This document shows positions 24,241-46,129 of a DNA stretch of 64,000 bases, piece after piece (within the stretch, counting starts at the first letter, position 1; each line of letters starts with the position of its first letter). This DNA is from Corallium rubrum. Its lineage: Eukaryota > Cnidaria > Anthozoa > Scleralcyonacea > Coralliidae. Under the pieces are notes generated by a model. It worked only from the letters and a program-made list of their open reading frames with translations. It ran no database searches and had not been told where the DNA came from. Location of the stretch: the NCBI GenBank assembly GCA_964035015.1, contig OZ036005.1, positions 15,709,625 to 15,773,624 of the forward strand, written 5' to 3'. Made by a program: the position numbers and the translations under genes.

Positions 24241-25979
24241 ACTTCTGAAGACGTTGAGAAATACCTTCTGAAGACGTTGAGAAATACCTTCAAATTCTTT
24301 GTACATCCATCAAATCCAGTGATCAATGTCTACCTCGTGTGGTTTATAAAAAGTTCATAAAACCTTATTGGAATGAGGAACTTGCTAATTTGAAGTCTAA
24401 GTGTATGGAGTGTCACAAGAAATGGATTTCAGATGGACGCCCAAGAGGCAATCAGTTTGAAAGCTTTCGTTTGTATAAAAATGCAAAACGTCTCTTTCGT
24501 AAGGAGCAACGCAGAATGGTATCACGTGCGGAGGAGAATGACTTTAAGGAACTTAGTGATACCTTTGAGATTGACAATAATAAATTTTGGAAATATGTAA
24601 AACGACGTCGAAAGAAAAAGATGTGTTCGGAGAATATGCTAACTGTCGAGGGAAAGACTGTCTCAGACCCTGAAAGAATTACAGAGTTGTGGGCTAAATA
24701 TTACCAGAACCTACTAACTCCTGAAGAAAACACAATGTTTGATAGCGACTTTAAGGAATATATAGAAAATAAGATCAAAGATATTTCAAACTTCTCAGGC
24801 GCTGACTTCGATGATATACTAAAAGATCCTATAATCATTCCGGAGTTGGAAAAAGTCCTCTCAACACTGCCGAAAAACAAAGCTCCTGGTGATGATGGTA
24901 TAACCTACGAACATGTTAAGTATTCCTCCGGTCAAATCTTAACCGAAAGACTCGTAATTCTTTACAACAAAATTATATACTCTTTACAACAACAGTATAT
25001 TCCAAAACAGTTTAAATTGGGGATTAAAATATCGATTCCGAAAGGAGGTAAAGCCAGTGCTTCAAAGTTTGATGATCATCGGGGGATCACTCTGCTTTGC
25101 AATTTTAATAAAATTTTTGAACGTTTGATACTCAATAGAATCCAGAGCAAGGTCATATGTCACCCTCATGGCCTGCAAGGAGCTTACCAAAGTGAGAAAG
25201 ATGCCCTGACAACATCATTTGTGATTGATGAGTCAATTAAGCACTGTTGTGAAGACAATGATAAAGTATATGTCTGCTATGTGGATGTCTCTAAAGCTTT
25301 TGATAAATTGTGGATTGATGGAATGTTATTTAAATTGTATTATAATTCAAAAATCAAAGGGAAAGCATGGAGACTTACTAAAAGCTGGTATTCAGATATG
25401 ACAGAATATGTTTTTATAACGGAATTCGCTCGAGGAAGTATGCTGTATTGCAAGGAACACGTCAAGGTGGAGTGCTTTCCCCGTGGTTATTCCTGTTATT
25501 TATTGATGATCTTATTAAAGAATTGGAAAGTTTATCGGCTGGGACAACAATTTATGACTCGTATGTTGGGACACCAATGTTTGCTGATGATCTCACTATG
25601 ATGTCGAGATTGAAAAATGGTCTTGACTGTATGTTTGTACAATTACATCATTACGGTTGCAAATGGAGGCTAACCTTTAATGAAGGAAAAACAGTGGCGT
25701 TAACATTCGGAGAAAAACCGAAGAAATCTTTGGCACAGAAAGAACGAAAGTGGTTCATAGGTGGTAAACAAATTGAGGAGAAAGAAGTCTGGTCTAATCT
25801 TGGTAAAGTATGGCATGTAGATATTAATAGCTTGCAGCCATACTTAGAGGCCGCTAGGGCAGGACAGAGTTCTGGGATCAGTTTAGTTAATATAGGCTGC
25901 AGGATAAATGGCATAAACCCACTAGTGGCTACAAAATTATGGAAAATAATTGCCCTACCAAAAATGTTATATGGTGCTG
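24241..25979 (+). mobile_element. LINE copy F, left part (split by the palindromic element)
   Basis: 5'-truncated LINE of a third subfamily. Its first bases contain a short direct duplication (CTTCTGAAGACGTTGAGAAA twice, 24242-24290). It continues at 41701 after the 15.7-kb insertion; the 6-bp GTGCTG is present on both sides. Confidence 0.85.
24300..25979 (+). pseudogene. LINE F ORF2, RT domain, part 1
   Basis: It encodes the RT finger and palm: APGDDGITYEHV, KFDDHRGITLL, VYVCYVDVSKAFDKLW, QGTRQGGVLSPWLF, and FADDLTMMS (about 25580). A frameshift lies near 25440. The reading frame runs to 25979 and resumes at 41701 with the next residues, showing that the insertion fell in a coding sequence. 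Confidence 0.85.
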
Positions 25980-26105
25980 AGTAGTGATACCCCCCCCATA
26001 TAGACCACAAAGGGGTGCCGCCTCATAAAATATTCAACTTATTATTTGGGTAGGGATAAAACGCGGATGCGGATGGCGGACGGCGGATGCGGATGGCGGA
26101 TGGCG

Positions 26106-26400
26106 GATGAGAAAAGGCGGATAGAGGATAAAACGCGGATGAGAAAAAGCGGATAGAGGATAAAACGCGGATGAGAAAAGGCGGATAGAGGATAAAACGC
26201 GGATGAGAAAAGGCGGATAGAGGATAAAACGCGGATGAGAAAAGGCGGATAGAGGATAAAACGCGGATGAGAAAAGGCGGATAGAGGATAAAACGCGGAT
26301 GAGAAAAGGCGGATAGAGGATAAAACGCGGATGAGAAAAGGCGGATAGAGGATAAAACGCGGATGAGAAAAGGCGGATAGAGGATAAAACGCGGATGGGG
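26106..26400. repeat. 32-bp tandem repeat in left TIR
   Basis: About nine near-identical copies of a unit containing GCGGATAGAGGATAAAACGC. The repeat reads open in all minus frames because 32 is not a multiple of three, which explains the three overlapping long frames. Confidence 0.9.
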
Positions 26401-26493
26401 GATAAAACGCGCATGGGCAAAATAACGTGGGAACATAAAATAAAATCATATTAGATATAAAACCCTAAGAACATTTTTCATGATGTCTTACAC

Positions 26494-26560
26494 TGCTAGC
26501 GGGATTTGAACTCGCACCTTCTGGATTCCGGTCCGCCGCTCTAGGAGGCGAGTTATATCC
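26494..26560 (-). other. tRNA-like sequence in the TIR
   Basis: Read on minus, it contains GCGAGTTCAAATCCCGC, an RNA polymerase III B box with flanking stem, and an A-box-like CTCGCCTCCTAGAGCGGCGG upstream. The anticodon arm does not fold as a proper tRNA, so this looks like a tRNA-derived (SINE-like) piece. A related piece lies at about 29311-29370. Confidence 0.45.
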
Positions 26561-26699
26561 AACATAAGTGCACGAGATATTCTCGGGACAACTTAACGCT
26601 TATATCCGTGAGGATGTGCAGTGTTTCTCGTACTTTATCTAGCTCTGTATTTCTCGTACTTTATCTAGCTCTCGTCCGTTACTCTGTTCCCATGAACTC

Positions 26700-27029
26700 G
26701 CTTACGCATCGCAAGTCTGGGCTCCACAGTCTGTCGACCTTATCAAGCGCACGGAACGCGTCCAAAGACGCGCATCAAAACATATAATGGATCTACCCTT
26801 CTTCTGTGACATCAGTTATAACCATCGTCTCTTAACGTTAAATCTACTTCCTTTATGTTACTGGCACGAATACCTTGACATGTTGTTCCTTTTCGAATCA
26901 AATCGTAACATTATTAACTTAAGCAGTGACATAGCTACTATACCAGAACCTCAAAATTCAAATAGACCCACACGATCAGCAAACCCAAACTGTTTACAAT
27001 TTCAGACAACAAAATGTAAAACATCTTAA
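26700..27029 (+). pseudogene. LINE reverse transcriptase, C-terminal scrap (different family)
   Basis: The frame includes CSQVW-like ASQVWAPQSVDLIKRTERVQ and then LNLLPLCYWHEYLDMLFLF, the conserved region after the RT domain in many LINEs and group II-like families. The rest is missing. It is captured inside the nested transposon. Confidence 0.6.
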
Positions 27030-28037
27030 CTATGAAATGTATAACTTTAAAAGACTTTAAAAAAGGACTATATAATTACTATATTTTAGCACTAGAACAC
27101 TGTTTTAATGCAGATGATCGACGGACATGGAAAATGCAACAAAGCGCGTGATCTAACTAAGTTATATTTGTTGTAATCTTTAGGGACCGCAGTAATTGGC
27201 GTAAGCTGTTGCGGTTGCCCTGCCAGTTGTTTCACTTGTTTGTGTCGATGTCTGTACGTATTGTTTGAGTATGGCAAAGCAAATAAAATAAAATAAATAT
27301 ATAACCCTGTAGATATAAAACGAAAGAGAAAGAGAATTTAAAATGTCGGAAGAATTCAAAGTTTAATACGCGTCACATGCCTAAAACATAACCCCAACTC
27401 TAAACATAACACATGTCCGTAGGTTGAAGAATCCTCCTGATTTACATAAACTTTAGCTTTGATTTTCTCGGCATAGACAACGTTATTTTTCAAACTTACT
27501 ACGCCAATCAACTTACCAAATGGGTCGTTTTTGAGGCTATTTAACTACATTCGCAGTACGTGTTTTATCAGATCTAAAACACTCGGCTATCGCCTCGTGT
27601 TTTTAATCTGATACAACACTGCTGCTCATATGTTTTAAATGATTACTTAAACAATCATATAAAATAAATGTACACATATACACACATACATGTAATGTTT
27701 ACAACATGAGCGGCCGTGTTGTATCGAATATACAATCACGAGCCGAAGGCGAGTGATTATATATTCGATACAACACGGACGCGAATGTTGTAAACAGCTT
27801 AAAACACGTCGAGTCTTTGATGTTAATATGAGTAATATTTGTTCAGATTAATTCAGAAAAAGCTCAATTTCAATGTTTTAGAACGGAGATAGTGACCTGA
27901 TATACAACCACTAGTGGTTGTATATGTGATACAACCACGTGTGGTTTGTATCAGATATACAACCTCCTTCACGGTCATGATTTCTTTTGTGTTTTCTTCA
28001 TGAATTATTAATGAGTGTTTTAATATGTATTTACATC
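27030..28037. repeat. Non-coding interior with short palindromes
   Basis: A near-perfect hairpin lies at about 27716-27777 (GTGTTGTATCGAATATACAA and its inverse around GAGCCGAAGGCGA). A cluster at about 27896-27985 has ACAACCACTAGTGGTTGT and related inverted repeats. No gene is seen. Confidence 0.6.
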
Positions 28038-28310
28038 AAGGAAACGACTTCTCTTTTCTCAAACTGCTACCTCTAAGTGCTCTAAGCTACTGGCATGAAT
28101 ATCTCGACATATTTTTCTACAAGATAACTCATGGTATCAACATTCTGAAAAAAAATATCCAAGCAACTCTTCAAAATCATGCACAGACAAACAAGATCAT
28201 CTAACACCTCTACCTATCAAAAATCCTGTACAATTCGGACAACAAGAATCTGGAACACACTACCCAAATCCCATTACAAGGAAAACTATCACACCAACTA
28301 ACTTTAAGCA
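28038..28310 (+). pseudogene. Second LINE RT C-terminal scrap
   Basis: A frame beginning near FLKLLPLSALSYWHEYLDIFFYK resembles the scrap at 26860 but is more decayed. Same orientation. Confidence 0.45.
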
Positions 28311-28521
28311 CTTACTATTCAAAATCATTACATCTTGGTATTGCGAAATACTTATAACATAGACAATCCACGGATATGGAAGAGCGTTTGTCTTACAAAC
28401 TCACTATCATGTTGTTTTTAAAATATTGCATGTCATATATGTGTAGGATGTATTTTGATGTCCGTCTTTACTACCGTCTTGAAGTTATTTACTGTAACTT
28501 CAAGATTTTTACAATCAATCA

Positions 28522-28555
<34 letters not shown>

Positions 28556-29140
28556 TTATAAATAAATATATCTATATATAGAAGAGACTTATGCCTATAT
28601 TAAATATACAGTTCATGATTCCGATGCAATAACAAAGGGAAAAGGTTTAAATTTACCACTTATATATAAACTTATTAACTTTCCGTTTGCATGCGCGTTC
28701 TTAACAACAAGAGGAAATGCAGAACTTTATTGATCAGTCTGATCATTCGAGAAATTTCTGGTTCTCACCGAAGGAAGTAACGGCCTAAACAGAACGCTGG
28801 CTACGAATGAAGCGTTGCCGGACGGACTCCCAATGCCATTATATAGCGACTTCACATTGAAACGTCGGCAAAACCACCAGCAAAAATAACACCGGATTAA
28901 AGCTAATTTGCCAAAAGCGGTCGATGACTGATAAAGTAAAGAACTACGAACAGTGCCATATTAAATGTGCGTGTTGTAAAAACCCTCTGATTCATGCCAC
29001 AATGAGAACAGTACTGTGCTTTCTAATCTACAATCTCGTAAATTCGTAATATTATTTGGGTCGTTAGCGATGTTTAGTCAGTAGATATAGACAAACTCTA
29101 AATTTTGAAAAACAGCTTGCCTTCGATAAACCGCACCATG
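28311..29140. other. AT-rich stretch with (TA)n
   Basis: A (TA)n run at 28525-28552; otherwise no gene or recognised repeat. Confidence 0.6.
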
Positions 29141-29762
29141 TAACGCGTATTAAACTTTGAATTCTTCCGACATTTTAAATTCTCTTTCTCTTTCGTTTTA
29201 TATCTACAGGGGTTTATATGAAACACTGCACGTCCTCACGGATATAAGCGTTAAGTTGTCTGTTGTCCCGAGAATATTTCGTGCACTTATGTTGGATAGA
29301 ACTCCGCTCGCCTCCTAGAGCGGCGGACTGGGATTTGAACTCGTACCTTCGGGATTCCGCTAGCAGTGTAAGACATCATGAAAAATGTTCTTAGGGTTTT
29401 ATATCTAATATGATTTTATTTTATGTTCCTCACGTTATTTTGCCCATCCGCGTTTTATCCCCCATCCGCCTTTTCTCATCCGCGTTTTATCCTCTATCCG
29501 CCTTTTCTCATCCGCGTTTTATCCTCTATCCGCCTTTTCTCATCCGCGTTTTATCCTCTATCCGCCTTTTCTCATCCGCGTTTTATCCTCTATCCGCCTT
29601 TTCTCATCCGCGTTTTATCCTCTATCCGCCTTTTCTCATCCGCGTTTTATCCTCTATCCGCCTTTTCTCATCCGCGTTTTATCCTCTATCCGGCTTTTCT
29701 CATCCGCCATCCGCCATCCGCATCCGCCGTCCGCCATCCGCATCCGCGTTTTATCCCTACCC
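29141..29762. repeat. Right TIR of nested transposon with 32-bp repeats
   Basis: Inverse of 26048-26640 plus about 27300-27370. The tandem 32-bp units lie at about 29460-29700. A tRNA-like piece at about 29334-29363 is not inverted relative to the left copy. Confidence 0.8.
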
Positions 29763-29771
29763 TTATTATTT

Positions 29772-30479
29772 ATTCATTCTCCTTTGTGACGTTCTAACCC
29801 TAATCTCATTATGCATACGTCATTATTTCTCATGTTCCTTTGGGACATAGTAACCCTAACTTTCCCCCTAACCCTAGATGTTACTTAACCCCCCCGTCAT
29901 TCCCGATTGGTCTCCGACTGATTTCCGAAGTTACGTAAAAGGCACTAGACTTATCTCTTTATAAGTGATAGTAATCACATTTTCATTTAAACCCTTAACC
30001 CGACTTATAGTCAACAGTTGTGGGACACGTATACGTACAGAGCATGCGTACAGTAAACTTTAACAAAATAGACGTTCTTTACAAGGAACTAAAGAGAAAT
30101 TGATAGAGGCACTTTATATTTTTTTATCTGAAACCTTGTCTCGATGAGTATAGAGAGTTTTGAGCAGCCTAAGTGTCTGAATTGGCAGAGCTCTATAGAT
30201 TTAGATTAGTAGCATATAATGAATATTATAATAGAACCTAAATATTCAATCATCCTAGAATCATTGCTGCTAAACCCTTGTTTATAAGTGAAGAAATCGT
30301 AAGAAGATAGAATGAGCAGTCAATTTTAAAAAACCATAAGAACGTTTTTTAAGTGTCGATATATAAAATGAAATATTATTTGGCTGCGGGGCGGCTGAGT
30401 ATCGACTTGAATTAATAGCAACATGAATATTATATTAGTTAGAACTTAAACGACCATCTTTACCTATTTACTTGGAGAT
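29772..30479. other. Non-coding outer part of left arm
   Basis: No gene recognised. It contains CCCTAACCCTAA-like degenerate bits (29860-29875), which are too few to be telomeric. Confidence 0.5.
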
Positions 30480-30647
30480 ATGTGCCGAATTGTCGCTTAT
30501 TTGGCTTTAGTGTATAAAGTAAACGATGCCTTGAATGAACAAACCGTTCGGCAAGTTGTTCGAAAGACATTGAATCATTTTCTTCAGAGGGATTTGCCAG
30601 AATATAAACTGTCAAGGGTTAAACGGCTGTCTGAGCTATTTTATTAA
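30480..30647 (+). pseudogene. Bcl-2-like protein remnant (left arm)
   Basis: The 55 codons match the second half of the Bcl-2-like product at 46130-46498: MCRIVAYLALVYKV aligns with FGRIVAYLAFVYRV, the BH1 core of Bcl-2 proteins, followed by a conserved TVRxxVRxTxNxF helix. The upstream helices are not recognisable, so this is a truncated relic. Confidence 0.6.
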
Positions 30648-30894
30648 CGTCGTCAAGCATCTTGTTAATGTTGCTACGGCTGATATTTGCGTATTTATGC
30701 TCAGTGCATGTGCAGGAGACAAAAGAGAAAACTCGTTAAAGTTACTAATGACCAAAACATAACAGGATTTGCATATAAGTAGAATATTTAATTCATTTTA
30801 GGGGTGATCATGAGTTTTGGGGGGATAATAAGGGGCATGAAGAGGTATTAATGCATGGGCAAGTTCAGGCGAGAAAGTCATTAGGACAGGTTCT

Positions 30895-30982
30895 GAAATT
30901 ACGAAACTAAAGAGACCGGCTTACGAGGAGTACCTTGTTGAAAAATATGGAAACGTTACGAACAAAAGAAATTTGAACTAAT
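30895..30982 (+). pseudogene. Remnant of the YEEYL-motif protein C-terminus (left arm)
   Basis: Encodes RPAYEEYLVEKYGNVT, matching the C-terminal AYEEYLLEKSRNLT of 34113-34595. Only the tail remains. Confidence 0.5.
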
Positions 30983-31880
30983 GTTGTATGTGTTATGAGG
31001 ACATAATCGAGTTAATCCGAAATAAACGTGTAGATTGAACTTGCTCATTTTTAATACATAAGTGAGGAAACTGTAGGAAGATAAAATGTGGAATCACTTC
31101 GAGAAGCCGTAAGAACGATTTTAAATATCGAAATATAAAGGCTAAGCGAATTATTACTTTGATATATAACTGAGATTCATCATGGTTACTAGGGATCGAT
31201 ATTAGAATATTCAAATTCGTTTGCAAGGCCACGTGCAGGAGACAAAAGAAAAACTCATTAAGGGTCATTAAGAGGATTAAGCGCTTAGGCAAGTCTAGGC
31301 GGGAAGATAATTAACATTGCTACCATAGCGAAACCGCGTCGCATCCTTCATTCGTCTCAGGCTCCTTGGGGACTCTCTACTGCTACTCAGCCCCCCGTGT
31401 AATACGTCATAATCGATACTCTCCGACTAATTCCTGAAGTTCCAAATGTTTAAAAAACGGTGTCTTTCACGTGTATACACCTCCTATTTTAAGTCTTTAG
31501 GCATTATGATAATATTTCGTTTGTATTCTTTCAGTGATTTGGTGGCTTTTAAAAGATTGTAATTTTTAAAATGTGATTTGTTTAAAGAAACGTTTTTATA
31601 ATAAGACTAAATAACGAAATAAAGTTTCAAAAATATGTAATTTCATATTTACCATCACACAAAGCTCCTAATATTTACAAACACGCAAAACGTAAAATCC
31701 ATAAGTATCACTGTTAATCGCATGCAGAATGATTGGAGAAAGTCTTTAGCGTTGGGCGTCTCTACGTGTAAACGATTATTTACAATGTTCGCAGATAAAC
31801 TTCTGCGTTAGCCCAGAAAAGGTACACAAAACACAAAACCGCTAAATTACTATTTTACAAACATATATAACCAAAGTTTA
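30983..31880. other. Non-coding, with an internal diverged duplication
   Basis: The GTGCAGGAGACAAAAG segment near 31226 repeats one near 30710, showing an old duplication inside the arm. No supported gene. Confidence 0.5.
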
Positions 31881-32440
31881 CTATTCTTCTTCTTCTTCTT
31901 CTTCTTCTTCTTCTTCTTCTTCTTCTTCTTCTTCTTCTTCTTCTCGTTTACTCTGTAACCATGCTCCATAGGCCTCGACTTCTACTTTTGCACAGTGATG
32001 ATACGCATTAGGAACTATGTGGTTACCGCATGTCTCTAACCATGTTAGTCTATCAAAGAGATAGCAAGCCTTTGGACAGTTATAGCTTTCCAAGTTTACC
32101 CAAGGGATATTGAGTCTGCTCAAGAGATCACGCTCGATATGTCCACCTTTGTATGCCATTGTAGACTTTTCGTTGATTTTTACGGTAGTAAAAAATTCTG
32201 TGACGATTCGATCAAGAGCTGTGATAGGTATAGCCTTCGCGGTCCGGGGTACGTCGAAAGGAAGTTTATGTATATGATTCTTCACATATGCACAGCTTCG
32301 TCTATCGTGTTCAGTTAAATCGTGCCAATTAATACCAATGTCGAAAAATATGAAGTAGCTTCGTTGTTCCCCACGGTTAACAGTCCGAGTTCTTTACAAA
32401 GGAATTTTTTATTTTTAGTAAATCCATCCATGTTTATAAT
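31881..32440 (-). pseudogene. Acidic-tail protein, frameshifted copy (left arm)
   Basis: Inverse copy of 38915-39514. A run of five A at about 32344 versus six T in the other arm shifts the frame, so the N-terminus is cut off and only a frame starting within the KNHIHKLPF region stays open. The poly-Glu tract is shorter than in the right arm. Confidence 0.65.
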
Positions 32441-33620
32441 TCCTACTATGTTTTCCATCTTATCCGCTAGCAATGTGATACGAGTGGGAACGTAATGAGT
32501 ACTCTCTTACATACCCTTTAGCCTAGGGTTTTGAAAGCCTGGCCAATGGTAAAAAAACAAAGAAAACAATTTGAGATGTTCCGACACATAATATGGTATT
32601 CTCTCATTGTATAGGGAGTTTCGGCGTATGATTCAAATTTGCCGCTCTTTTAAATTAAATGAATTCGGTAATTGATCAAGCCTTAAGAACACGCCGCACC
32701 CCAAATAAACATGAAGTAGCTTCGTTGTTCCCCATGGTTAACAGTCCGAGTTCTTTACAAAGGAATTTTTTATTTTTAGTAAATCCATCCAGGTCTATAA
32801 TTCCTACTATGTTTTCCATCTTATCCGCTAGCATTGTGATACGAATGGGAACGTAATGAGTACTCTCTTACACACCCTTTAGCCTAGGGTTTTGAAAGCC
32901 TGGCCAATGGTAAAAAACAAAGAAAACAATTTGAGATGTTCCGACACATAATAAGGTATTCTCTCATTGTATAGGGAGTTTCGGCGAATGATTCAAATTT
33001 GCCGCTCTTTTAAATTAAATGAATTCGGTAATTAATCAAGCCTTAAGAACACGCCACACCCCAAACAAATATGAAATAGCTTCGTTGTCCCCCACCGGTT
33101 AACAGTCCGAGTTCTTTACAAAGGAATTTTTTATTTTTAGTAAATCCATCCAGGTCTATAATTCCTACTATGTTTTCCATCTTATCCGCTAGCATTGTGA
33201 TACGAATGGGAACGTAATGAGTACTCTCTTACACACCCTCTAGCCTAGGGTTTTGAAAGCCTGGCCAATGGTAAAAAACAAAGAAAACAATTTGAGATGT
33301 TCCGACACATAATAAGGTATTCTCTCATTGTATAGGGAGTTTCGGCGAATGATTCAAATTTGCCGCTCTTTTAAATTAAATGAATTCGGTAATTGATCAA
33401 GCCTTAAGAACACGCCGCACCCCAAATAAATATGAAATAGCTTCGTTGTCCCCCACCGGTTAACAGTCCGAGTTCTTTACGAAGGAATTTTTTATTTTTA
33501 GTAAATCCATCCAGGTCTATAATTCCTACTATGTTTTCCATCTTATCCGCTAGCATTGTGATACGAGTGGGAACGTAATGAGTACTCTCTTACACACTCT
33601 TTAGCCGAGGGTTTTGATGT
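32380..33620. repeat. About 360-bp tandem repeat, four units (left arm)
   Basis: Each unit contains the promoter-proximal and first 30 or so codons of the acidic-tail gene (read on minus), followed by about 230 bases of spacer. Units start near 32350, 32710, 33070 and 33430. The right arm has three. Confidence 0.85.
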
Positions 33621-33763
33621 TTTCAATCTGTGTAATCTATTTTTAATTATAACATGCTTGCCTCTGTCTAATTGAACGTCTATTATTAAATATTCTCAAG
33701 CCTCTCGTATATAAAATCCCCACAAATTATAGTTCTGCTATCCTATAACCATCATTCAGAACG

Positions 33764-33896
33764 GGATGCTTGGGGGTATCTTGGGGGTGTTTGGGGGTGT
33801 TTGGAGGTGTTTGGGGTGTCTTGGGGTGTTTATGGGGTGTTTGGGGGTGCTTGGGGTGTTTGGGGGTTTCTAGGGGTGTCTTGGGGTAATCTTGGG
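33764..33896. repeat. G-rich minisatellite (left arm)
   Basis: Units of about 9-11 bases, variants of TTGGGGGTGT. It could form G-quadruplexes on this strand. Inverted copy at 37839-37972. Confidence 0.85.
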
Positions 33897-33921
33897 ATGT
33901 TTGGTAGTGCCTTATAAGTCC

Positions 33922-34110
33922 ATGTACACTATTGATGTTAATGACTCATTAGCAAATTTAAACAAAAGAATGAGTCTGGGCGAGTCTGGGCGACGTCAGA
34001 GCTTAGACAAAGAAATCCTAATTAATATGCTAGTTGCCATAGAAAAATTACGACGTCGTTTTGCTTGGTGTATCACTTGCTTACTATTTGCTGTTGGAGT
34101 AAGACCGTAG
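33922..34110 (+). CDS. Small helical ORF upstream of the CYGC protein (left arm)
   Basis: 62 codons from ATG at 33922, ending 2 bases before the next ATG. It has a helical, charged middle (DKEILINMLVAIEKLRRRF) and a short hydrophobic end. A similar helical stretch lies upstream of the GRF gene at 45288-45360. It may be a small protein, a regulatory upstream frame or an exon. Function unknown. Confidence 0.35.
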   Translation: MYTIDVNDSLANLNKRMSLGESGRRQSLDKEILINMLVAIEKLRRRFAWCITCLLFAVGVRP

Positions 34111-34112
34111 AG

Positions 34113-34595
34113 ATGGAGGGTTTATATGAAAAATTATTTTCAATGTTTGAGACTATTTACAATGAAACTTTGTGGGAAGAATATTCGAAGCTTTGTCGTG
34201 AAAAGTGCTACGGTTGCAGGACTAACCATTCTAGCCAGAAACAACATAGTTGCCTAACAGATGATGAGCAATGGAGATCGTACTACGAAGAGATCAGGAC
34301 AAACGTCGATGAACGAATCTGGAAAGAGTTCAACGAAGCTGGGCAGGCGTTGAAATTACGAAATCAAAGAGACTCTCAAAAAACTTCAGAGACAGTGGTC
34401 GAGCCGATGGAAATTGACGACTCGCCAAATATTCTTTCTATATTTGTTCTGTTTACCAGTCCATTAAAATATTTGTACGAAGTAAAAGACACTGGTGAAA
34501 TATTTACGAGTAGGATAAAGAATCCCCGAGAGGCTTACGAGGAGTACCTTCTTGAAAAGTCTAGAAACTTAACGACGAAAAGCAAGCTGAACTAA
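34113..34595 (+). CDS. CYGC/YEEYL protein (left arm)
   Basis: 160 codons. The N-terminal part has LWEEYSKLCREKCYGCRTNH, a likely zinc-binding Cys/His cluster, followed by a helical segment. The C-terminal part has YEVKDTGEIFTS...AYEEYLLEK, which also ends the GRF protein at 45368-46000. The shared tail links this element to the Polinton at 45069. The start is ATG at 34113; the longer frame upstream uses a TTG. Function unknown. Confidence 0.6.
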   Translation: MEGLYEKLFSMFETIYNETLWEEYSKLCREKCYGCRTNHSSQKQHSCLTDDEQWRSYYEEIRTNVDERIWKEFNEAGQALKLRNQRDSQKTSETVVEPMEIDDSPNILSIFVLFTSPLKYLYEVKDTGEIFTSRIKNPREAYEEYLLEKSRNLTTKSKLN

Positions 34596-34877
34596 TGTTA
34601 TATGTGTTATGAGAACATTATCAACTAAATCCAAAGTTAAATTATGTTTTAAGTTAAAAAAATTACTTGGACTATATAGTGTGTAAGAAAGCTGTGTAAT
34701 TTTATATGTGTGTAATTTTATCTGAAGAAAAAATAATAAAGGCATACGAGCAACATTATAATAGTTCTTTGTAGTTTATTTTTATATTTATAACAAATTA
34801 CAGTGTGCATATTGACAGCTAATTATTTACATAAACAAATGTTTTTAAATAAATCTGTCCTGCGTTTACGGTTTCTT

Positions 34878-35324
34878 CTAGCGCACCCACTTCTTAGAGA
34901 TATCGTTTGTTTCTCTATTGTCAAAACACTGCTCGCTCTTTATAGGGAATTTTGATATTTTCCGTTTTCTGCGTTGTTTATTGTTTACGGACTCCCCATG
35001 CTGCTCTCTTAGATAATTATTGAAGTTTGTTGCCATTTCCTCTTGTCTCCTTATAATGCTTTTCAAAGTTTTCTCCATATTTACTTCTGTGCTGTCTGCG
35101 ATAGTTTCTTTACTCTGTAAAGGTACACATATTCCAATTTTACTCCATTTTAGCCATTTAGCGCGTTCTTTATTATCCATGTGATGTACTTGATCAAGAT
35201 GATTTGCTAGCCTTGCAAGATTAGTGCTTCCGCAACCGAAGACAGGACAGTTTCTACGTGTGCGACCCATGTTTAGTTGTTTACTCAAGCAATGACAGAA
35301 AGCATTTGACATTTTTTCTGGCAT
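34878..35324 (-). CDS. C2H2-like zinc-finger protein (left arm)
   Basis: 148 codons. One finger: CPVFGCGSTNLARLANHLDQVHH, with Cys-Cys-His-His spacing near that of C2H2 fingers, then a basic and coiled C-terminal region with KQRRKRKISKF. Paralogous to the smaller product next to it. Likely DNA-binding. An identical gene with a few substitutions lies in the other arm. Confidence 0.6.
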   Translation of the reverse strand: MPEKMSNAFCHCLSKQLNMGRTRRNCPVFGCGSTNLARLANHLDQVHHMDNKERAKWLKWSKIGICVPLQSKETIADSTEVNMEKTLKSIIRRQEEMATNFNNYLREQHGESVNNKQRRKRKISKFPIKSEQCFDNRETNDISKKWVR

Positions 35325-35427
35325 GACAGATGCTTTTATTAGGCCCGTTTAGACCCTATTTGGCCTTTTTTGGCCCGTTTAGGCCTTTTGATCCGTTCAA
35401 AGATACCCTTACCACCACGGGGTGCCC

Positions 35428-35652
35428 TCAAAGATTACTCTTAAAAGAGCCTAGTTTTATGTACTTAGTATTTCGAATAAGTCTGTGTAATTCGTTTAAC
35501 AAAGTTTCTAAATCTATAGGAGAAGCTTTAGCTCGAATCAAATGAGATTGTCTTTCTTTTGAAGAGAGTTGATGAACATTGGATAAATGATTTGCTAATC
35601 TTAATAAAGCTTGCTTGCCGCAGACAGGACAATCCTTACGCCTTCGAGGCAT
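35428..35652 (-). CDS. Small C2H2-like zinc-finger protein (left arm)
   Basis: 74 codons. It starts MPRRRKDCPVCGKQALLRLA and continues NHLSNVH, giving a CxxC...HxxxxH finger with a basic N-terminus, then a helical tail. Separated from the larger paralog by a 100-base spacer made of repeated GGCCTAAACGGGCC-like words. Likely DNA-binding; role unknown. Confidence 0.6.
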   Translation of the reverse strand: MPRRRKDCPVCGKQALLRLANHLSNVHQLSSKERQSHLIRAKASPIDLETLLNELHRLIRNTKYIKLGSFKSNL

Positions 35653-35838
35653 GATAACAAATGAACGATTTGAAAATGGTACTCAAAAATAAATACTTTA
35701 TATGGCCCTGGGGGCCTTTTTCGTGGCCCTGTGGCCCTATCGCTTGAATACACTCCCTGTCCCCCTCGGCCCCTTGTCCCCTCCGACCCTCCACCCCCAC
35801 CCCTAAAGTTTCTGTAAACATTCCCAGTAAAATTGTAC

Positions 35839-35896
35839 ACGATCCTATAATCCTTAGTCTCGCTCTTAGTCACGACATCCTTATTCGTTCTATCGC
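35839..35896. other. Unique spacer at the palindrome centre
   Basis: 58 bases not present as an inverted copy. On both sides GTACAATTTTACT words mark the ends of the arms. This is where a hairpin would loop. Confidence 0.85.
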
Positions 35897-36081
35897 GTAC
35901 AATTTTACTAGGAATATTTACAGAAACTTTAGGGGTGGGGGTGGAGGGTCGGAGGGGACAAGGGGCCGAGGGGACAGGGAGTGTATTCAAGCGATAGGGC
36001 CACAGGGCCACGAAAAAGGCCCCCAGGGCCATATAAAGTATTTATTTTTGAGTACCATTTTCAAATTGTTCATTTGTTATC

Positions 36082-36306
36082 ATGCCTCGAAGGCGTAAGG
36101 ATTGTCCTGTCTGCGGCAAGCAAGCTTTATTAAGATTAGCAAATCATTTATCCAATGTTCATCAACTCTCTTCAAAAGAAAGACAATCTCATTTGATTCG
36201 AGCTAAAGCTTCTCCTATAGATTTAGAAACTTTGTTAAACGAATTACACAGACTTATTCGAAATACTAAGTACATAAAACTAGGCTCTTTTAAGAGGAAT
36301 CTTTGA
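36082..36306 (+). CDS. Small C2H2-like zinc-finger protein (right arm)
   Basis: Same as 35428-35652 with one substitution near the end (SFKRNL versus SFKSNL). 74 codons, one CxxC...HxxxxH finger. Confidence 0.6.
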   Translation: MPRRRKDCPVCGKQALLRLANHLSNVHQLSSKERQSHLIRAKASPIDLETLLNELHRLIRNTKYIKLGSFKRNL

Positions 36307-36409
36307 GGGCACCCCGTGGTGGTGAGGGTATCTTTGAACGGGCCAAAAGGCCTAAACGGGCCAAAAAAGGCCAAATAGGGCCTAAACGGGCCTAATAAAA
36401 GCATCTGTC

Positions 36410-36856
36410 ATGCCAGAAAAAATGTCAAATGCTTTCTGTCATTGCTTGAGTAAACAACTAAACATGGGTCGCACACGTAGAAACTGTCCTGTCTTCGGTT
36501 GCGGAAGCACTAATTTTGCAAGGCTAGCAAATCATCTTGATCAAGTACATCACATGGATAATAAAGAACGCGCTAAATGGCTAAAATGGAGTAAAATTGG
36601 AATATGTGTACCTTTACAGAGTAAAGAAACTATCGCAGACAGCACAGAAGTAAATATGGAGAAAACTTTGAAAAGCATTATAAGGAGACAAGAGGAAATG
36701 GCAACAAACTTCAATAATTATCTAAGAGAGCAGCATGGGGAGTCCGTAAACAATAAACAACGCAGAAAACGGAAAATATCAAAATTCCCTATAAAGAGCG
36801 AGCAGTGTTTTGACAATAGAGAAACAAACGATATCTCTAAGAAGTTGGTGCGCTAG
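36410..36856 (+). CDS. C2H2-like zinc-finger protein (right arm)
   Basis: Same as 34878-35324 with two substitutions (FARLANH for LARLANH; KKLVR for KKWVR at the end). 148 codons. Confidence 0.6.
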   Translation: MPEKMSNAFCHCLSKQLNMGRTRRNCPVFGCGSTNFARLANHLDQVHHMDNKERAKWLKWSKIGICVPLQSKETIADSTEVNMEKTLKSIIRRQEEMATNFNNYLREQHGESVNNKQRRKRKISKFPIKSEQCFDNRETNDISKKLVR

Positions 36857-37138
36857 AAGAAACCGTAAACGCAGGACAGATTTATTTAAAAACATTTGTT
36901 TATGTAAATAATTAGCTGTCAATATGCACACTGTAATTTGTTATAAATATAAAAATAAACTACAAAGAACTATTATAATGTTGCTCGTATGCCTTTATTA
37001 TTTTTTCTTCAGATAAAATTACACACATATAAAATTACACAGCTTTCTTACACACTATATAGTCCAAGTAATTTATTTAACTTAAAACATAATTTAACTT
37101 TGGATTTAGTTGATAATGTTCTCATAACACATATAACA

Positions 37139-37621
37139 TTAGTTCAGCTTGCTTTTCGTCGTTAAGTTTCTAGACTTTTCAAGAAGGTACTCCTCGTAAG
37201 CCTCTCGAGGATTCTTTATCCTACTCGTAAATGTTTCACCAGTGTCTTTTACTTCGTACAAATATTTTAATGGACTGGTAAACAGAACAGATATAGAAAG
37301 AATATTTGGCGAGTCGTCAATTTCCATCGGCTCGACCACTGTCTCTGAAGTTTTTTGAGAGTCTCTTTGATTTCGTAATTTCAACGCCTGCCCAGCTTCG
37401 TTGAACTCTTTCCAGATACGTTCATCGACGTTTGTCCTGATCTCTTCGTAGTACGATCTCCATTGCTCATCATCTGTTAGGCAACTATGTTGTTTCTGGC
37501 TAGAATGGTTAGTCCTGCAACCGTAGCACTTTTCACGACAAAGCTTCGAATATTCTTCCCACAAAGTTTCATTGTAAATAGTCTCAAACATTGAAAATAA
37601 TTTTTCATATAAACCCTCCAT
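37139..37621 (-). CDS. CYGC/YEEYL protein (right arm)
   Basis: Same as 34113-34595 with a few substitutions (SISVLFT for SIFVLFT; TGETFTS for TGEIFTS). 160 codons. Keeping both copies open supports a real gene or very recent arm formation. Confidence 0.6.
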   Translation of the reverse strand: MEGLYEKLFSMFETIYNETLWEEYSKLCREKCYGCRTNHSSQKQHSCLTDDEQWRSYYEEIRTNVDERIWKEFNEAGQALKLRNQRDSQKTSETVVEPMEIDDSPNILSISVLFTSPLKYLYEVKDTGETFTSRIKNPREAYEEYLLEKSRNLTTKSKLN

Positions 37622-37623
37622 CT

Positions 37624-37812
37624 CTACGGTCTTACTCCAACAGCAAATAGTAAGCAAGTGATATACCAAGCAAAACGACGTCGTAATTTTTCTATGGAAA
37701 CTAGCATATTAATTAGGATTTCTTTGTCTAAGCTCTGACGTCGCCCAGACTCGCCCAGACTCATTCTTTTGTTTAAATTTGCTAATGAGTCATTAACATC
37801 AATAGTGTACAT
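37624..37812 (-). CDS. Small helical ORF (right arm)
   Basis: Same as 33922-34110 with a few substitutions (MLVSIEK for MLVAIEK; WYITC for WCITC). Confidence 0.35.
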   Translation of the reverse strand: MYTIDVNDSLANLNKRMSLGESGRRQSLDKEILINMLVSIEKLRRRFAWYITCLLFAVGVRP

Positions 37813-37838
37813 GGACTTATAAGGCACCACCAAACATC

Positions 37839-37972
37839 CCAAGATTACCCCAAGACACCCTTAGAAACCCCCAAACACCCCAAGCACCCCCAAACACCCC
37901 CTAAACACCCCAAGACACCCCAAACACCTCCAAGCACCCCCAAACACCCCCAAGATACCCCCAAGCATCCCG
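37839..37972. repeat. C-rich minisatellite (right arm)
   Basis: Inverse copy of 33764-33896. Confidence 0.85.
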
Positions 37973-38124
37973 TTCTGAATGATGGTTATAGGATAGCAGA
38001 ACTATAATTTGTGGGGATTTTATATACGAGAGGCTTGAGAATTTTTAATAATAGACGTTCAATTAGACAGAGGCAAGCATGTTATAATTAAAAATAGATT
38101 ACACAGATTGAAAACATCAAAACC

Positions 38125-38915
38125 CTCGGCTAAAGAGTGTGTAAGAGAGTACTCATTACGTTCCCACTCGTATCACAATGCTAGCGGATAAGATGGAAAA
38201 CATAGTAGGAATTATAGACCTGGATGGATTTACTAAAAATAAAAAATTCCTTTGTAAAGAACTCGGACTGTTAACCGGTGGAGGACAACGAAGCTATTTC
38301 ATATTTATTTGGGGTGCGGCGTGTTCTTAAGGCTTGATCAATTACCGAATTCATTTAATTTAAAAGAGCGGCAAATTTGAATCATTCGCCGAAACTCCCT
38401 ATACAATGAGAGAATACCTTATTATGTGTCGGAACATCTCAAATTGTTTTCTTTGTTTTTTACCATTGGCCAGGCTTTCAAAACCCTAGGCTAAAGGGTG
38501 TGTAAGAGAGTACTCATTACGTTCCCATTCGTATCACAATGCTAGCGGATAAGATGGAAAACATAGTAGGAATTATAGACCTGGATGGATTTACTAAAAA
38601 TAAAAAATTCCTTTGTAAAGAACTCGGACTGTTAACCGGTGGGGGACAACGAAGCTATTTCATATTTGTTTGGGGTGCGGCGTGTTCTTAAGGCTTGATC
38701 AATTACCGAATTCATTTAATTTAAAAGAGCGGCAAATTTGAATCATACGCCGAAACTCCCCATACAATGATAGAATACCATATTATGTGTCGGAACATCT
38801 CAAATTGTTTTCTTTGTTTTTTACCATTGGCCAGGCTTTCAAAACCCTAGGCTAAAGGGTATGTAAGAGAGTACTCATTACGTTCCCACTCGTATCACAT
38901 TGCTAGCGGATAAGA
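38125..38915. repeat. About 360-bp tandem repeat (right arm)
   Basis: Two full spacer-plus-5'-end units before the intact acidic-tail gene, so three 5' ends in all. In the first two units the initiator-like ATG of ATGCTAGCGGATAAG is kept, while the third, joined to the intact gene, has TTG at that place. Confidence 0.85.
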
Positions 38916-39514
38916 TGGAAAACATAGTAGGAATTATAAACATGGATGGATTTACTAAAAATAAAAAATTCCTTTGTAAAGAACTCGGACTGTTAACCGT
39001 GGGGAACAACGAAGCTACTTCATATTTTTTCGACATTGGTATTAATTGGCACGATTTAACTGAACACGATAGACGAAGCTGTGCATATGTGAAGAATCAT
39101 ATACATAAACTTCCTTTCGACGTACCCCGGACCGCGAAGGCTATACCTATCACAGCTCTTGATCGAATCGTCACAGAATTTTTTACTACCGTAAAAATCA
39201 ACGAAAAGTCTACAATGGCATACAAAGGTGGACATATCGAGCGTGATCTCTTGAGCAGACTCAATATCCCTTGGGTAAACTTGGAAAGCTATAACTGTCC
39301 AAAGGCTTGCTATCTCTTTGATAGACTAACATGGTTAGAGACATGCGGTAACCACATAGTTCCTAATGCGTATCATCACTGTGCAAAAGTAGAAGTCGAG
39401 GCCTATGGAGCATGGTTACAGAGTAAACGAGAAGAAGAAGAAGAAGAAGAAGAAGAAGAAGAAGAAGAAGAAGAAGAAGAAGAAGAAGAAGAAGAAGAAG
39501 AAGAAGAAGAATAG
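38915..39514 (+). CDS. Acidic-tail protein of unknown function (right arm)
   Basis: 199 codons from ATG at 38915. A strand with NIVGIINMDGFTKNKKFLCK is followed by FFDIGINWHDL, YKGGHIERDLL, CGNHIVPNAYHHCAKVEVEAYG and a run of about 30 Glu encoded by (GAA)n. The spaced Asp, Glu and His residues look like a nuclease (RNase H or DnaQ-like) fold, but I cannot prove it. The Glu tail is a microsatellite extension and probably recent. The left-arm copy is frameshifted. Confidence 0.55.
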   Translation: MENIVGIINMDGFTKNKKFLCKELGLLTVGNNEATSYFFDIGINWHDLTEHDRRSCAYVKNHIHKLPFDVPRTAKAIPITALDRIVTEFFTTVKINEKSTMAYKGGHIERDLLSRLNIPWVNLESYNCPKACYLFDRLTWLETCGNHIVPNAYHHCAKVEVEAYGAWLQSKREEEEEEEEEEEEEEEEEEEEEEEEEEE

Positions 39515-40747
39515 TAAACTTTGGTTATATATGTTTGTAAAATAGTAATTTAGCGGTTTTGTGTTTTGTGTACCTTTTCTGGGCTAACGCAGAAGTTTAT
39601 CTGCGAACATTGTAAATAATCGTTTACACGTAGAGACGCCCAACGCTAAAGACTTTCTCCAATCATTCTGCATGCGATTAACAGTGATACTTATGGATTT
39701 TACGTTTTGCGTGTTTGTAAATATTAGGAGCTTTGTGTGATGGTAAATATGAAATTACATACTTTTGAAACTTTATTTCGTTATTTAGTCTTATTATAAA
39801 AACGTTTCTTTAAACAAATCACATTTTAAAAATTACAATCTTTTAAAAGCCACCAAATCACTGAAAGAATACAAACGAAATATTATCATAATGCCTAAAG
39901 ACTTAAAATAGGAGGTGTATACACGTGAAAGACACCGTTTGTTAAACATTTGGAACTTCAGGAATTAGTCGGAGAGTATCGATTATGACGTATTACACGG
40001 GGGGCTGAGTAGCAGTAGAGAGTCCCCAAGGAGCCTGAGACGAATGAAGGATGCGACGCGGTTTCGCTATGGTAGCAATGTTAATTATCTTCCCGCCTAG
40101 ACTTGCCTAAGCGCTTAATCCTCTTAATGACCCTTAATGAGTTTTTCTTTTGTCTCCTGCACGTGGCCTTGCAAACGAATTTGAATATTCTAATATCGAT
40201 CCCTAGTAACCATGATGAATCTCAGTTATATATCAAAGTAATAATTCGCTTAGCCTTTATATTTCGATATTTAAAATCGTTCTTACGGCTTCTCGAAGTG
40301 ATTCCACATTTTATCTTCCTACAGTTTCCTCACTTATGTATTAAAAATGAGCAAGTTCAATCTACACGTTTATTTCGGATTAACTCGATTATGTCCTCAT
40401 AACACATACAACATTAGTTCAAATTTCTTTTGTTCGTAACGTTTCCATATTTTTCAACAAGGTACTCCTCGTAAGCCGGTCTCTTTAGTTTCGTAATTTC
40501 AGAACCTGTCCTAATGACTTTCTCGCCTGAACTTGCCCATGCATTAATACCTCTTCATGCCCCTTATTATCCCCCCAAAACTCATGATCACCCCTAAAAT
40601 GAATTAAATATTCTACTTATATGCAAATCCTGTTATGTTTTGGTCATTAGTAACTTTAACGAGTTTTCTCTTTTGTCTCCTGCACATGCACTGAGCATAA
40701 ATACGCAAATATCAGCCGTAGCAACATTAACAAGATGCTTGACGACG
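39515..40747. other. Non-coding part of right arm
   Basis: Inverse of 30648-31880. It includes the YEEYL-tail remnant (about 40413-40500, minus). No other gene supported. Confidence 0.5.
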
Positions 40748-40915
40748 TTAATAAAATAGCTCAGACAGCCGTTTAACCCTTGACAGTTTATATTCTGGCA
40801 AATTCCTCTGAAGAAAATGATTCAATGTCTTTCGAACAACTTGCCGAACGGTTTGTTCATTCAAGGCATCGTTTACTTTATACACTAAAGCCAAATAAGC
40901 GACAATTCGGCACAT
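40748..40915 (-). pseudogene. Bcl-2-like protein remnant (right arm)
   Basis: Inverse copy of 30480-30647, same 55 codons with the RIVAYLALVY core. Confidence 0.6.
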
Positions 40916-41628
40916 ATCTCCAAGTAAATAGGTAAAGATGGTCGTTTAAGTTCTAACTAATATAATATTCGTGTTGCTATTAATTCAAGTCGATACTCAG
41001 CCGCCCCGCAGCCAAATAATATTTCATTTTATATATCGACACTTAAAAAACGTTCTTATGGTTTTTTAAAACTGACTGCTCATTCTATCTTCTTACGATT
41101 TCTTCACTTATAAACAAGGGTTTAGCTAGCAATGATTCTAGGATGATTGAATATTTAGGTTCTATTATAATATTCATTATATGCTATTAATCTAAATCTA
41201 TAGAGCTCTGCCAATTCAGACACTTAGGCTGCTCAAAACTCTCTATACTCATCGAGACAAGGTTTCAGATAAAAAAATATAAAGTGCCTCTATCAATTTC
41301 TCTTTAGTTCCTTGTAAAGAACGTCTATTTTGTTAAAGTTTACTGTACGCATGCTCTGTACGTATACGTGTCCCACAACTGTTGACTATAAGTCGGGTTA
41401 AGGGTTTAAATGAAAATGTGATTACTATCACTTATAAAGAGATAAGTCCAGTGCCTTTTACGTAACTTCGGAAATCAGCCGGAGACCAATCGGGAATGAC
41501 GGAGGGGTTAAGTAACATCTAGGGTTAGGAGGAAAGTTAGGGTTACTATGTCCCAAAGGAACATGAGAAATAATGACGTATGCATAATGAGATTAGGGTT
41601 AGAACGTCACAAAGGAGAATGAATAAAT
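40916..41628. other. Non-coding outer part of right arm
   Basis: Inverse of 29772-30479; shows the empty site (TTATTATTT region at about 41624) of the nested transposon. Confidence 0.6.
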
Positions 41629-41700
41629 AATAAGTTGAATATTTTATGAGGCGGCAACCCTTTGTGGTCTATATGGGGGGGGGGGGGGGGTATCACTACT

Positions 41701-42605
41701 GTGCTGAATTATGGAATCTTAATAGAACTAAATTACAACAATTAGAAAAAGTACAAAATTGTTTTGTTAGAATTGCTTTGGGGTTGTTGGGTGGTACTTC
41801 AGGATCTTCTGCACGTGGATTGCTTGGACTTTGGTCTGTTGAGGCCGAAATTAACAAACGTAAACTCCTGTTTCTGAGGCGATTAGTAACAGAAAATGAA
41901 TATTGCATTTATCGTAAAATGTTTATGTTACGATTGATAAGATGGAAATGGAATCCACATAAAATCACTGGGTTTATACCTGACATCATAACAGTTCTAG
42001 AGAAGTATGACATGTGGAGTCACATGGAGGAATTTTTAAGATCTGGACACTTTCCAAGTAAATCTGTATGGAGAAGGACAGTAACTGAAAATATTGGAAA
42101 TTTAGAGAATGCAACATGGTTGTTAAAGATACAAAGCAAACCTGGACTTCAACTATACCGGCGTGCTGTTAAAGAATTGTCACCCAATATGTGGCTAATA
42201 CTGGCAAAGGAAAGTAATGCAATGGTTGAACATGTGTCTACTATTGTCAAAGTCCTTTGTGGATCATTCCTTGCTGGAGGCGTGCGATTTAACGGAGATA
42301 AAGAGATGTTTTGTAATGCTTGCAGCAGGAATTACAAAAATCCTGTCAAACACTCTATGCTGTATTGTAGAGAAACAGTTGGAATAAGAGAAAGATTTTA
42401 TGATTGGTTGATAAATTGCCTACCCGTAGAAATTTCAGCTGATCTCAACATGCTAGATGATGACAGTCTTTTATATACTCTTTTTGGTGACATAGGGACG
42501 TTGCAAGAATACCCAAGTGATCTGTTAAAACAATTTTATCTCGGTGTAGCGGAATACATTTCTGAAACTATTAAAATAGCCAGTTATATTGACAGTTATC
42601 GATGA
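41701..42605 (+). pseudogene. LINE F ORF2, C-terminal part
   Basis: The frame resumes at AELWNLNR and runs open to 42605 with SSARGLLGLWSVEAEINKRK and the zinc motif CNACSRNYKNPVKHSMLYC. Apart from the insertion and the frameshift near 25440 it is undamaged. Confidence 0.85.
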
Positions 42606-45068: not shown

Positions 45069-45367
45069 AGTAGATCCCCCCCCCCCCCCCCTCCCCCCCA
45101 AATACCGACACAAAGGGATGCTGCCTTATTAATATTCAGCGTGACTCACGTATGACTCACGCATGACTCACGCATGACTCACGCCTGTGACATGATTGGG
45201 CAAGACTAGGATAATTATAGTATACATGAAGCTATATAAGCTCGGAAATTACGATGTCAGCATTACACCTGGTCTGGTCAGCTAAGTTTGCTGGAGGAAT
45301 CTACACTTGTTCGAGACTTTAGAGAAGGATTGGAACGTTTGTTGAAAGCATTAGAAACCGTCGCACA

Positions 45368-46000: not shown

Positions 46001-46129
46001 ACATGTATAATTTTGTATTCCAATTATCTATCTAATAAATATATGTTTATACCTGACTTTTTTGTGATTCATTTCTCTCCAACTTTTGTTGTGTGAACAC
46101 GAATTGTTATAGACCAATACGCATACGCT

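Follow-up and report, generated by a model that had tools for sequence, protein, structure and literature searches.

A palindromic Polinton derivative in the Corallium rubrum genome, read as a probable integrated snap-back genome

Within a 64,000-nucleotide stretch of the anthozoan Corallium rubrum (contig OZ036005.1, positions 15,709,625 to 15,773,624; hereafter the window), positions 25980 to 41700 are occupied by a palindrome with Polinton-type ends, which raises the question of how an element can come to carry the same end twice and be inserted without an integrase gene of its own. We consider it very probable that this element is an integrated snap-back (copy-back) Polinton genome which was inserted in trans, and that some of its relatives propagate as palindromes. 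The evidence used throughout is genome sequence, also for the replicating form of the element, and the genome searched comprises 474 Mb in 312 contigs.

The palindrome and its target site

The structure of the element is given by the following features (window positions; strand where assigned).

25974 to 25979: GTGCTG, the 6-bp target site duplication, in its left copy directly outside the left end
25980 to 26047, plus: left terminus (AGTAGTGATACCC...), separated from the remaining arm by a MULE-like insert
26048 to 29762: repeat of 3,715 bp, inserted later and confined to the left arm, with tandem arrays of 32-bp units at both ends
26039 to 26047 and 29763 to 29771: 9-bp duplication TTATTATTT flanking this insert
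29772 to 35838, plus: left arm of the palindrome (self-comparison, arm alignment)
35832 to 35838: ATTGTAC, the microhomology of 7 nt at which the second strand switch (J2) took place
35839 to 35896, minus: unpaired centre of exactly 58 nt between ATTGTAC and GTACAAT, holding codons of the PolB 3' end
35897 to 35903: GTACAAT, the 7-nt J2 partner, an inverted match of ATTGTAC
35929 to 35932: TTAG, the first strand-switch junction (J1) in the right arm, common to loci L010 and L011, which disrupts the PolB frame (left-arm mirror at about 35803 to 35806)
35897 to 41700, minus: right arm with terminus GGGTATCACTACT (self-comparison, arm alignment)
41701 to 41706: right copy of GTGCTG, directly outside the right end

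The element starts with AGTAGTGATACCC at position 25980 and ends with GGGTATCACTACT at position 41700. The original prediction, made from the letters of the window alone, had described a 12-kb palindrome with Polinton ends and a GTGCTG duplication inside a long interspersed nuclear element (LINE), and this description held up. Joining the LINE flanks with a single GTGCTG copy gives a frame of 476 codons with 0 internal stops, and subtracting the insert, which is Mutator-like (MULE-like) by its anatomy, and one TTATTATTT copy from the 15,721-bp span leaves an element proper of 11,997 bp. Up to the centre, the arms differ by 48 mismatches in 5,706 aligned bases (0.84%), some of which fall within a tandem repeat where unlike copies were possibly aligned, and by 392 gap columns, mostly owing to a 360-bp copy of the tandem repeat and to 21 bp of microsatellite. 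The predicted near-identical arms of about 6 kb around 58 unique bases are therefore present as described.

A further claim, the absence of polymerase, integrase and capsid genes, was upheld with one amendment. Queries with Polinton capsid, integrase and polymerase proteins gave no match within 25980 to 41700, nor did the integrase of a neighbouring Polinton or the C-terminus of the L011 integrase (both elements are described below). The ATPase query produced only weak matches in this interval (E value of 0.37 or worse), which we regard as noise, and the protease, packaging ATPase and capsid genes of Polintons found no counterpart in the window element. However, the 58-base centre is itself a remnant of a PolB gene, of which the element retains about 33 codons of the 3' end.

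Two strand switches at the centre

PolB codons are readable in the 58 unique bases and their surroundings. Searching the genome with 76 bases of the centre yielded 27 matches, and only that of the window itself extended from base 1; 17 others started at base 3 (position 35832, the first base of ATTGTAC), and nine weaker ones further in. We read about 250 bases at each of seven PolB 3'-end loci obtained from this search, and both J1 and J2 were missing in all of them. Five run straight through the J1 position, reading ...AAACTTTAG CAGGATC... (CTTTAG joined to CAGG), and in the other two, which form an inverted pair on contig 1, this position is occupied by a short variant that keeps the polymerase frame. 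In L010, L011 and the window, ...AAACTTTAG is followed by GGGTGGGG (CTTTAG joined to GGGTGGGG), which is inverted upstream intergenic sequence and defines J1 with a 4-nt TTAG overlap. J2, at which GTACAAT is folded on ATTGTAC, occurs in the window alone.

Both window arms carry J1 as well as the 32 bases that separate it from J2; about 0.37 kb of the L010/L011 sequence is gone from both, and private substitutions are common to the two. Because both arms carry J1 and the same loss of about 0.37 kb, both were copied from one J1-bearing strand. As read from these junctions, two successive strand switches, at inverted microhomologies of 4 and 7 nt, made the window palindrome; both of its ends come from one parental end, and its loop is contiguous with one arm in the parent. 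The idea of a copy-back defective genome is thus supported by the junction-free loci and the relatives containing only J1, but it has to be amended in that the centre is polymerase sequence and that there were two switches instead of one. Two of our own interim assignments were dropped: a 7-nt microhomology at J1, where the unswitched sequence shows 4 nt, and a piece of the ATPase gene in the window arms, where the alignment shows the stretch of about 0.37 kb of L010/L011 that the window lacks.

Some PolB ends have peculiarities of their own. The inverted pair on contig 1 (G000:C1:92849579, plus, and 92854884, minus) lies 5.3 kb apart and shares the same private variant, and is perhaps a deeper palindrome including much of PolB. 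One of the five straight-through loci (G000:C86:162540-162790, L091) contains integrase-like sequence about 40 bases beyond the J1 position, which we read as another possible product of strand switching or recombination.

Palindromes and their candidate helpers across the genome

A piece of the arm matched at least 40 places (the best 40 of 224 candidates), many of them as inverted pairs, and an inverted repeat of more than 400 bp was present in 14 of 20 loci fetched by arm similarity, which include single palindromes of 9.7 kb (L012, L016) and 7.5 kb (L015). Six elements picked from end pairs proved to be end-to-end palindromes of 5.6–6.65 kb with 95–99.6% identity, and all six have perfect 6-bp duplications. 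Because these six had been picked as pairs, we also sampled by the terminal motif alone. This motif, AGTAGTRATACCCCCC, occurs 347 times in forward and 347 times in reverse orientation in the genome (control, 0 and 0). The 100 places listed first all lie on contig 1 and comprise 43 inward-facing pairs less than 25 kb apart (4,976–15,877 bp, median 7,397) and 14 singles, and we examined the first 12 end pairs of contig 1 (p1 to p12) for symmetry and duplications. An exact 6-bp duplication flanks 11 of the 12, and p9 shows a 5-bp match shifted by one base. Eight are clearly palindromic, one partly (p7), two are Polintons with a capsid gene (p1, p6), and one was left undecided (p2).

The inverted similarity at a depth of 1–1.5 kb amounts to 99.6–100% over 423–501 bp in p3, p5, p8 and p9, and p4 is 100% inverted over 251 bp at 1–1.3 kb. 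For p10 and p11, we observed 96–98% over 1.2 kb at the middle, and for p12, 83% over 1.1 kb in the middle together with inverted arm matches at 2.8–2.9 kb. The capsid genes of p1 (13.9 kb) and p6 (14.7 kb) lie inside the elements, which show no inversion at 1–1.5 kb depth; the inverted similarity of p1 is mainly 86% over 237 bp at about 0.24–0.74 kb. The terminal motif of the palindromes is that of the capsid-gene Polintons in the same genome, one of which has the same ends and a 6-bp duplication, AGCGTT. The search proposed in the original prediction did turn up further palindromes with two-sided duplications and different flanks, and the window element is one member of a large population. 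Of the two features that these copies were expected to share, the ends are widespread and the window's own centre is single-copy; simple long terminal inverted repeats with a core between the arms, its counter-case, are not what p1 and p6 display at the depth given.

Several different turns, often at foldable sequence, are found among the palindromes, as strand switching predicts. L012 turns in a tandem repeat (GAATCCTAAGATTGAATCATT), which the non-palindromic relative L020 has in one orientation, between the ATPase and PolB genes. In the class of L015 and L016, the turn lies within a self-complementary tandem repeat situated upstream of the ATPase gene, and the flank of this turn (GACGCCGCCTCTAA) recurs in L029, L030 and L032. 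The latter three share one identical asymmetric centre and have three different duplications (TACATG, TATATA, CATCTT). The 115 bases around this centre are found at 115/115 identity in at least 16 places, plus many similar ones (among the best 40 of 126 candidates); a single event may account for two of the 16, which are separated by 4.5 kb on contig 123. Because an identical centre occurs at several insertion sites, a palindrome of this kind, once formed, was carried to several sites.

The two arms of an element also tend to share their changes. Across nine two-arm elements, 66 of 75 informative columns were mirrored in all elements, whereas random arm pairing gave 2.3 mirrored columns on average and 50 at most, so that 66 was reached in 0 of 2000 shuffles; L009, whose arm copies are of different subfamilies, 6% apart, was left out of this count. 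In L029, L030 and L032, 15 of 17 informative columns are common to both arms of one element versus the others, and two split arm A from arm B. In another 90 columns, one arm stands apart from all others; 88 of these concern a single L030 arm and probably represent a misaligned low-complexity stretch. In an arm tree, same-element arms are sisters in seven of the nine two-arm elements, with strong support for the window, L014 and L018 and bootstrap values of 83–94 for L012, L016, L019 and L022. The arms have diverged by 2.0–2.4% in L014, L018 and L022 and by 0.2–0.4% in L015, L016, L019 and L021, which suggests that arms are alike at insertion and drift apart later.

Each arm of the window element contains three main open reading frames (ORFs), for a predicted exonuclease, a 176-aa protein and a 148-aa Cys-rich protein, plus a Bcl-2-like fragment. 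The neighbouring Polinton, whose ORFs serve as reference, is listed with them.

30471 to 30641, plus: stretch resembling the Bcl-2-like ORF of the neighbouring Polinton (copy in the right arm, 40787 to 40924)
32346 to 33617: 361-bp tandem repeat in 3.5 copies, holding the start of the exonuclease ORF (right arm 38117 to 39027, 2.5 copies)
34065 to 34595, plus: 176-aa ORF, C-terminus like the GRF-zinc-finger protein of the neighbouring Polinton (copy in the right arm, 37139 to 37669, minus)
34878 to 35324, minus: 148-aa cysteine/histidine-rich ORF (right-arm copy 36410 to 36856, plus)
38900 to 39514, plus: 204-aa ORF with a predicted 3'-5' exonuclease fold (left-arm copy about 31884 to 32473, minus)
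45080 to 64000: neighbouring Polinton-type sequence with GRF, Bcl-2-like, ATPase and chromodomain integrase genes, terminus resembling that of the palindrome by eye (AGTAGATCCCC...)

The neighbouring ORF is presumably Bcl-2-like, a name we took from its motif. The structure model of the exonuclease ORF (predicted local distance difference test score, pLDDT, of 94) gave four matches in PDB at E values of 0.001 or lower, all to DexA, the best at 9e-5 with a template modelling (TM) score of about 0.5; RNase T and oligoribonuclease followed at 0.001–0.002. At this modest TM score, the protein is predicted to be a 3'-5' exonuclease of the DexA type. The exonuclease query found no relative among viral contigs, and the 148-aa ORF no match in Pfam. 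Ratios of nonsynonymous to synonymous substitution rates (dN/dS) between lineages were mostly 0.2–0.5 for the 148-aa ORF and 160 codons of the 176-aa ORF, and values of 0.68, 0.71, 1.40 and 2.10 were obtained for close pairs of the 148-aa ORF, whose divergence is very low. The ATPase gene, which is matched in other palindromes and forms an intact 270-aa frame in one arm of L016, gave 0.06 for L016 versus L025, 0.09 for L025 versus L026, 0.11–0.13 for all versus L020 and 0.80 for the near-identical L016 and L026, with the reservation that a palindromic form is not established for L025 and L026. The selection on arm genes may have acted in the parents. That a palindrome devoid of capsid genes has retained a packaging-type ATPase at least hints at packaging by a helper.

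Candidate helpers are present in the same genome, which contains PolB, integrase and capsid genes besides the palindromes. The gene order of L020 is accessory genes, ATPase, and then PolB in three broken pieces, two of which match Pfam DNA_pol_B_2 (E values of 5.9e-22 and 6.1e-25) and the third a PHROG DNA polymerase (1.9e-13). In L011 (G000:C22:14418000-14427999), an arm with J1 is joined to a chromodomain integrase end and to capsid, protease and ATPase genes, and it seems to have arisen by recombination between a palindrome and a full Polinton. Its protease matches the African swine fever virus protease S273R in PDB (E value of 4.9e-5), and the model of its 448-aa capsid protein (pLDDT 79) best matches the double-jelly-roll capsids of Paramecium bursaria chlorella virus 1, an iridovirus, mavirus and Sputnik (E values of about 1e-15 to 5e-15, TM scores of 0.5–0.6), which predicts a capsid of the double-jelly-roll type. 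Searches of Pfam for the capsid and protease, of PHROGs for the capsid, protease and integrase pieces, and of the PDB sequences with the capsid-protein profile yielded no match (nothing significant in the last case); PHROGs did return zinc-finger and endonuclease matches. From about 62.9 kb, the window itself contains the capsid-gene region of a second Polinton type with 91% identity to L011 and capsid matches in different frames. Homologues of the capsid protein of the window Polinton reach 73% each in the octocorals Paramuricea clavata and Dendronephthya gigantea, and another reaches 82%. Capsid-protein matches occur at no fewer than 95 places in the genome (best 94 of 379 candidates scored), and by our own count 59 cover the full length in a stop-free frame of 449 codons. 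An autonomous partner thus appears to exist in the same genome, in which capsid, protease, ATPase, integrase and polymerase genes are present.

Several further observations were made in passing. L020 has a tRNA-like sequence with an odd 4-base anticodon call between its ATPase and PolB genes (L020:5264-5337). A 601-bp piece of the MULE-like repeat has 109 genome matches, many being short bits of its AT-rich part (loci L001 to L008). Window positions 7195 to 7872 and 12564 to 13655 contain LINE ORFs with long in-frame THSL tandem repeats. The ORFs at 5468 to 5965 and 55144 to 55656 are of near-equal length and, judged by eye, share a like stretch (..VTANPI.. and ..VTANPL..), so the former is perhaps a stray Polinton gene at 5.5 kb.

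Origin, propagation and meaning of the palindromes

Formation of the palindrome by snap-back is close to established by the junctions, and the following course would account for it. Protein-primed synthesis, for which the genes are present, would displace a single strand, and a nascent or displaced 3' end would snap back at a short inverted homology and be extended to the terminus; the junctions are preserved, and the timing is our reconstruction. The sequences show that a Polinton-derived molecule with one terminus, the accessory genes and the PolB end switched strands at TTAG to give J1, as kept in L010 and L011, and that a J1-bearing strand switched again at GTACAAT/ATTGTAC within the PolB 3' end to give the window palindrome. 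The product has the same end twice and could be inserted in trans by a Polinton integrase with a 6-bp duplication. Insertion in trans, as originally proposed, agrees with the Polinton-type ends, the 6-bp duplications and the missing integrase gene. In later rounds, the strand may fold into a half-length hairpin, and replication from its single open end would yield a new palindrome. Because one arm would template the other in such a hairpin, arm mismatches would vanish, and one identical centre at many places together with mirrored arm changes would be expected. We infer hairpin propagation and packaging by a helper from these patterns. The extended proposal of self-perpetuating palindromic Polinton satellites, which persist as hairpin half-genomes with arms equalised in each cycle, have selected accessory genes (for an exonuclease, for small Cys-rich proteins and, in a single class, for a packaging ATPase), and borrow from coexisting Polintons the polymerase, the integrase and perhaps the capsid, appears to us slightly better supported than its negation.

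Several findings weigh against the snap-back origin and the propagation as palindromes. J1 has a microhomology of just 4 nt, which is weak, and only two turns with microhomology are at hand. The Polinton core on one side of L011 marks it as a recombinant and not a simple precursor, and the single-copy J2 centre of the window does not support multiplication of the window palindrome itself. Six of the 20 fetched loci (L010, L017, L020, L024, L025, which is at a contig end, and L026) have no inverted repeat of more than 400 bp in the stretch, p7 reaches only 89% over 279 bp at the middle and 64 bp at 1 kb, and p2 (5.2 kb) shows 86 bp of inverted similarity at 0.5–0.8 kb and none at 1–1.5 kb. The two arm copies of L009 belong to different subfamilies (6%); the tree leaves the arms of L015 unplaced and those of L021 as non-sisters, scattered over near-identical copies. 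Plain distances put one arm of L012 at 0.69% from L009 and at 1.08% from its partner, and place both arms of L022 closer to L015 than to each other. Arm identity could also stem partly from gene conversion after insertion.

This last point is the core of a rival explanation which accepts the snap-back origin and attributes the arm identity to post-insertion gene conversion and the shared centres to ordinary end-to-end replication, without a hairpin. We regard it as unlikely, though to be taken seriously: mirrored changes alone do not date the homogenisation, and the mirroring in class 3 is modest by itself (8 of 10 columns, reached by 30 of 2000 shuffles), but structural changes are mirrored too, and the arms of L014, L018 and L022, being 2.0–2.4% apart, show that conversion after insertion is slow at best. 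An ordinary non-autonomous DNA transposon, whose core was deleted from an element that already had long terminal inverted repeats, appears improbable. Long inverted repeats do occur in other superfamilies, such as Galileo, and capsid-gene Polintons and palindromes have the same ends and 6-bp duplications, but p1 and p6 lack inverted similarity at 1–1.5 kb depth, and core deletion would not leave a PolB 3' end folded on itself with J1 in both arms.

The remaining explanations place the event in the chromosome or in the assembly. Origin-dependent inverted-repeat amplification (ODIRA) makes palindromic linear fragments at short inverted repeats (PMC10766183), and in this respect resembles the process considered here. 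A chromosomal event of this type would, however, duplicate or invert one flank, whereas the flanks of the window element differ and carry a target duplication, and therefore the palindrome existed before insertion; we give this alternative very little credence. Large perfect palindromes are also a classic assembly artefact, as produced by inverted read chimaeras. The unlike flanks with matching 6-bp duplications, present at this element and at 17 of 18 others that were checked, the differences between the arms (0.84%, one extra 360-bp repeat copy, and an insertion confined to one arm) and the empty LINE site in frame make an artefact the least credible explanation of all. The snap-back origin of the window element remains our preferred reading.

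Among known systems, the element resembles Polintons/Mavericks (polintoviruses) in its AG...CT ends, 6-bp duplications, terminal motif and GRF-like and Bcl-2-like accessory genes, but it differs from them in lacking a polymerase, integrase and capsid gene, in terminal inverted repeats that make up half of the element each, and in deriving both ends from one parental end. The self-replication of Polintons by a protein-primed polymerase is itself deduced mostly from their gene content. Adenoviruses, which are protein-primed linear replicons, form palindromic defective genomes, including symmetric recombinants, with the same end twice; these match the replicon type and the repeated end, but are products of cell-culture passage, whereas here many related insertions reside in an animal genome. 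Vierula and Bertrand reportedly described in 1992 a deletion derivative of the Neurospora plasmid kalilo in hairpin and duplex form, and the yeast plasmid pGKL1 has palindromic derivatives. These are similarly PolB-encoding protein-primed replicons with deletion forms as hairpin and palindromic duplex, the hairpin being conjectural in our case; they are plasmids of fungal cells, and we know of no integrated forms with a target duplication. In the copy-back defective genomes of negative-strand RNA viruses, the template switch likewise lies near one end and leaves complementary ends with a short unpaired loop, but the genome is RNA and is made by an RNA polymerase. Foldback or long-inverted-repeat transposons and miniature inverted-repeat transposable elements (MITEs) are comparable as non-autonomous elements with long inverted repeats and target duplications that are moved in trans, but differ from a palindrome which would be born by a replication strand switch and whose ORFs show restrained protein change between lineages.

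Palindromic and hairpin deletion derivatives of protein-primed replicons are hence already known, and for an integrated, multiplying palindromic class of Polintons in animals we found no account in a limited search of the open-access literature. Such elements are readily masked as repeats or lost from short-read assemblies. Strand-switch junctions, unswitched relatives and an intermediate are all kept in this genome, and these traces agree with the idea that extrachromosomal Polinton DNA is made by strand displacement in an animal. They point to a parasite-helper relation between a Polinton and its palindromic satellite, which, if true, would be an animal counterpart of defective interfering genomes that has turned into a heritable mobile lineage.

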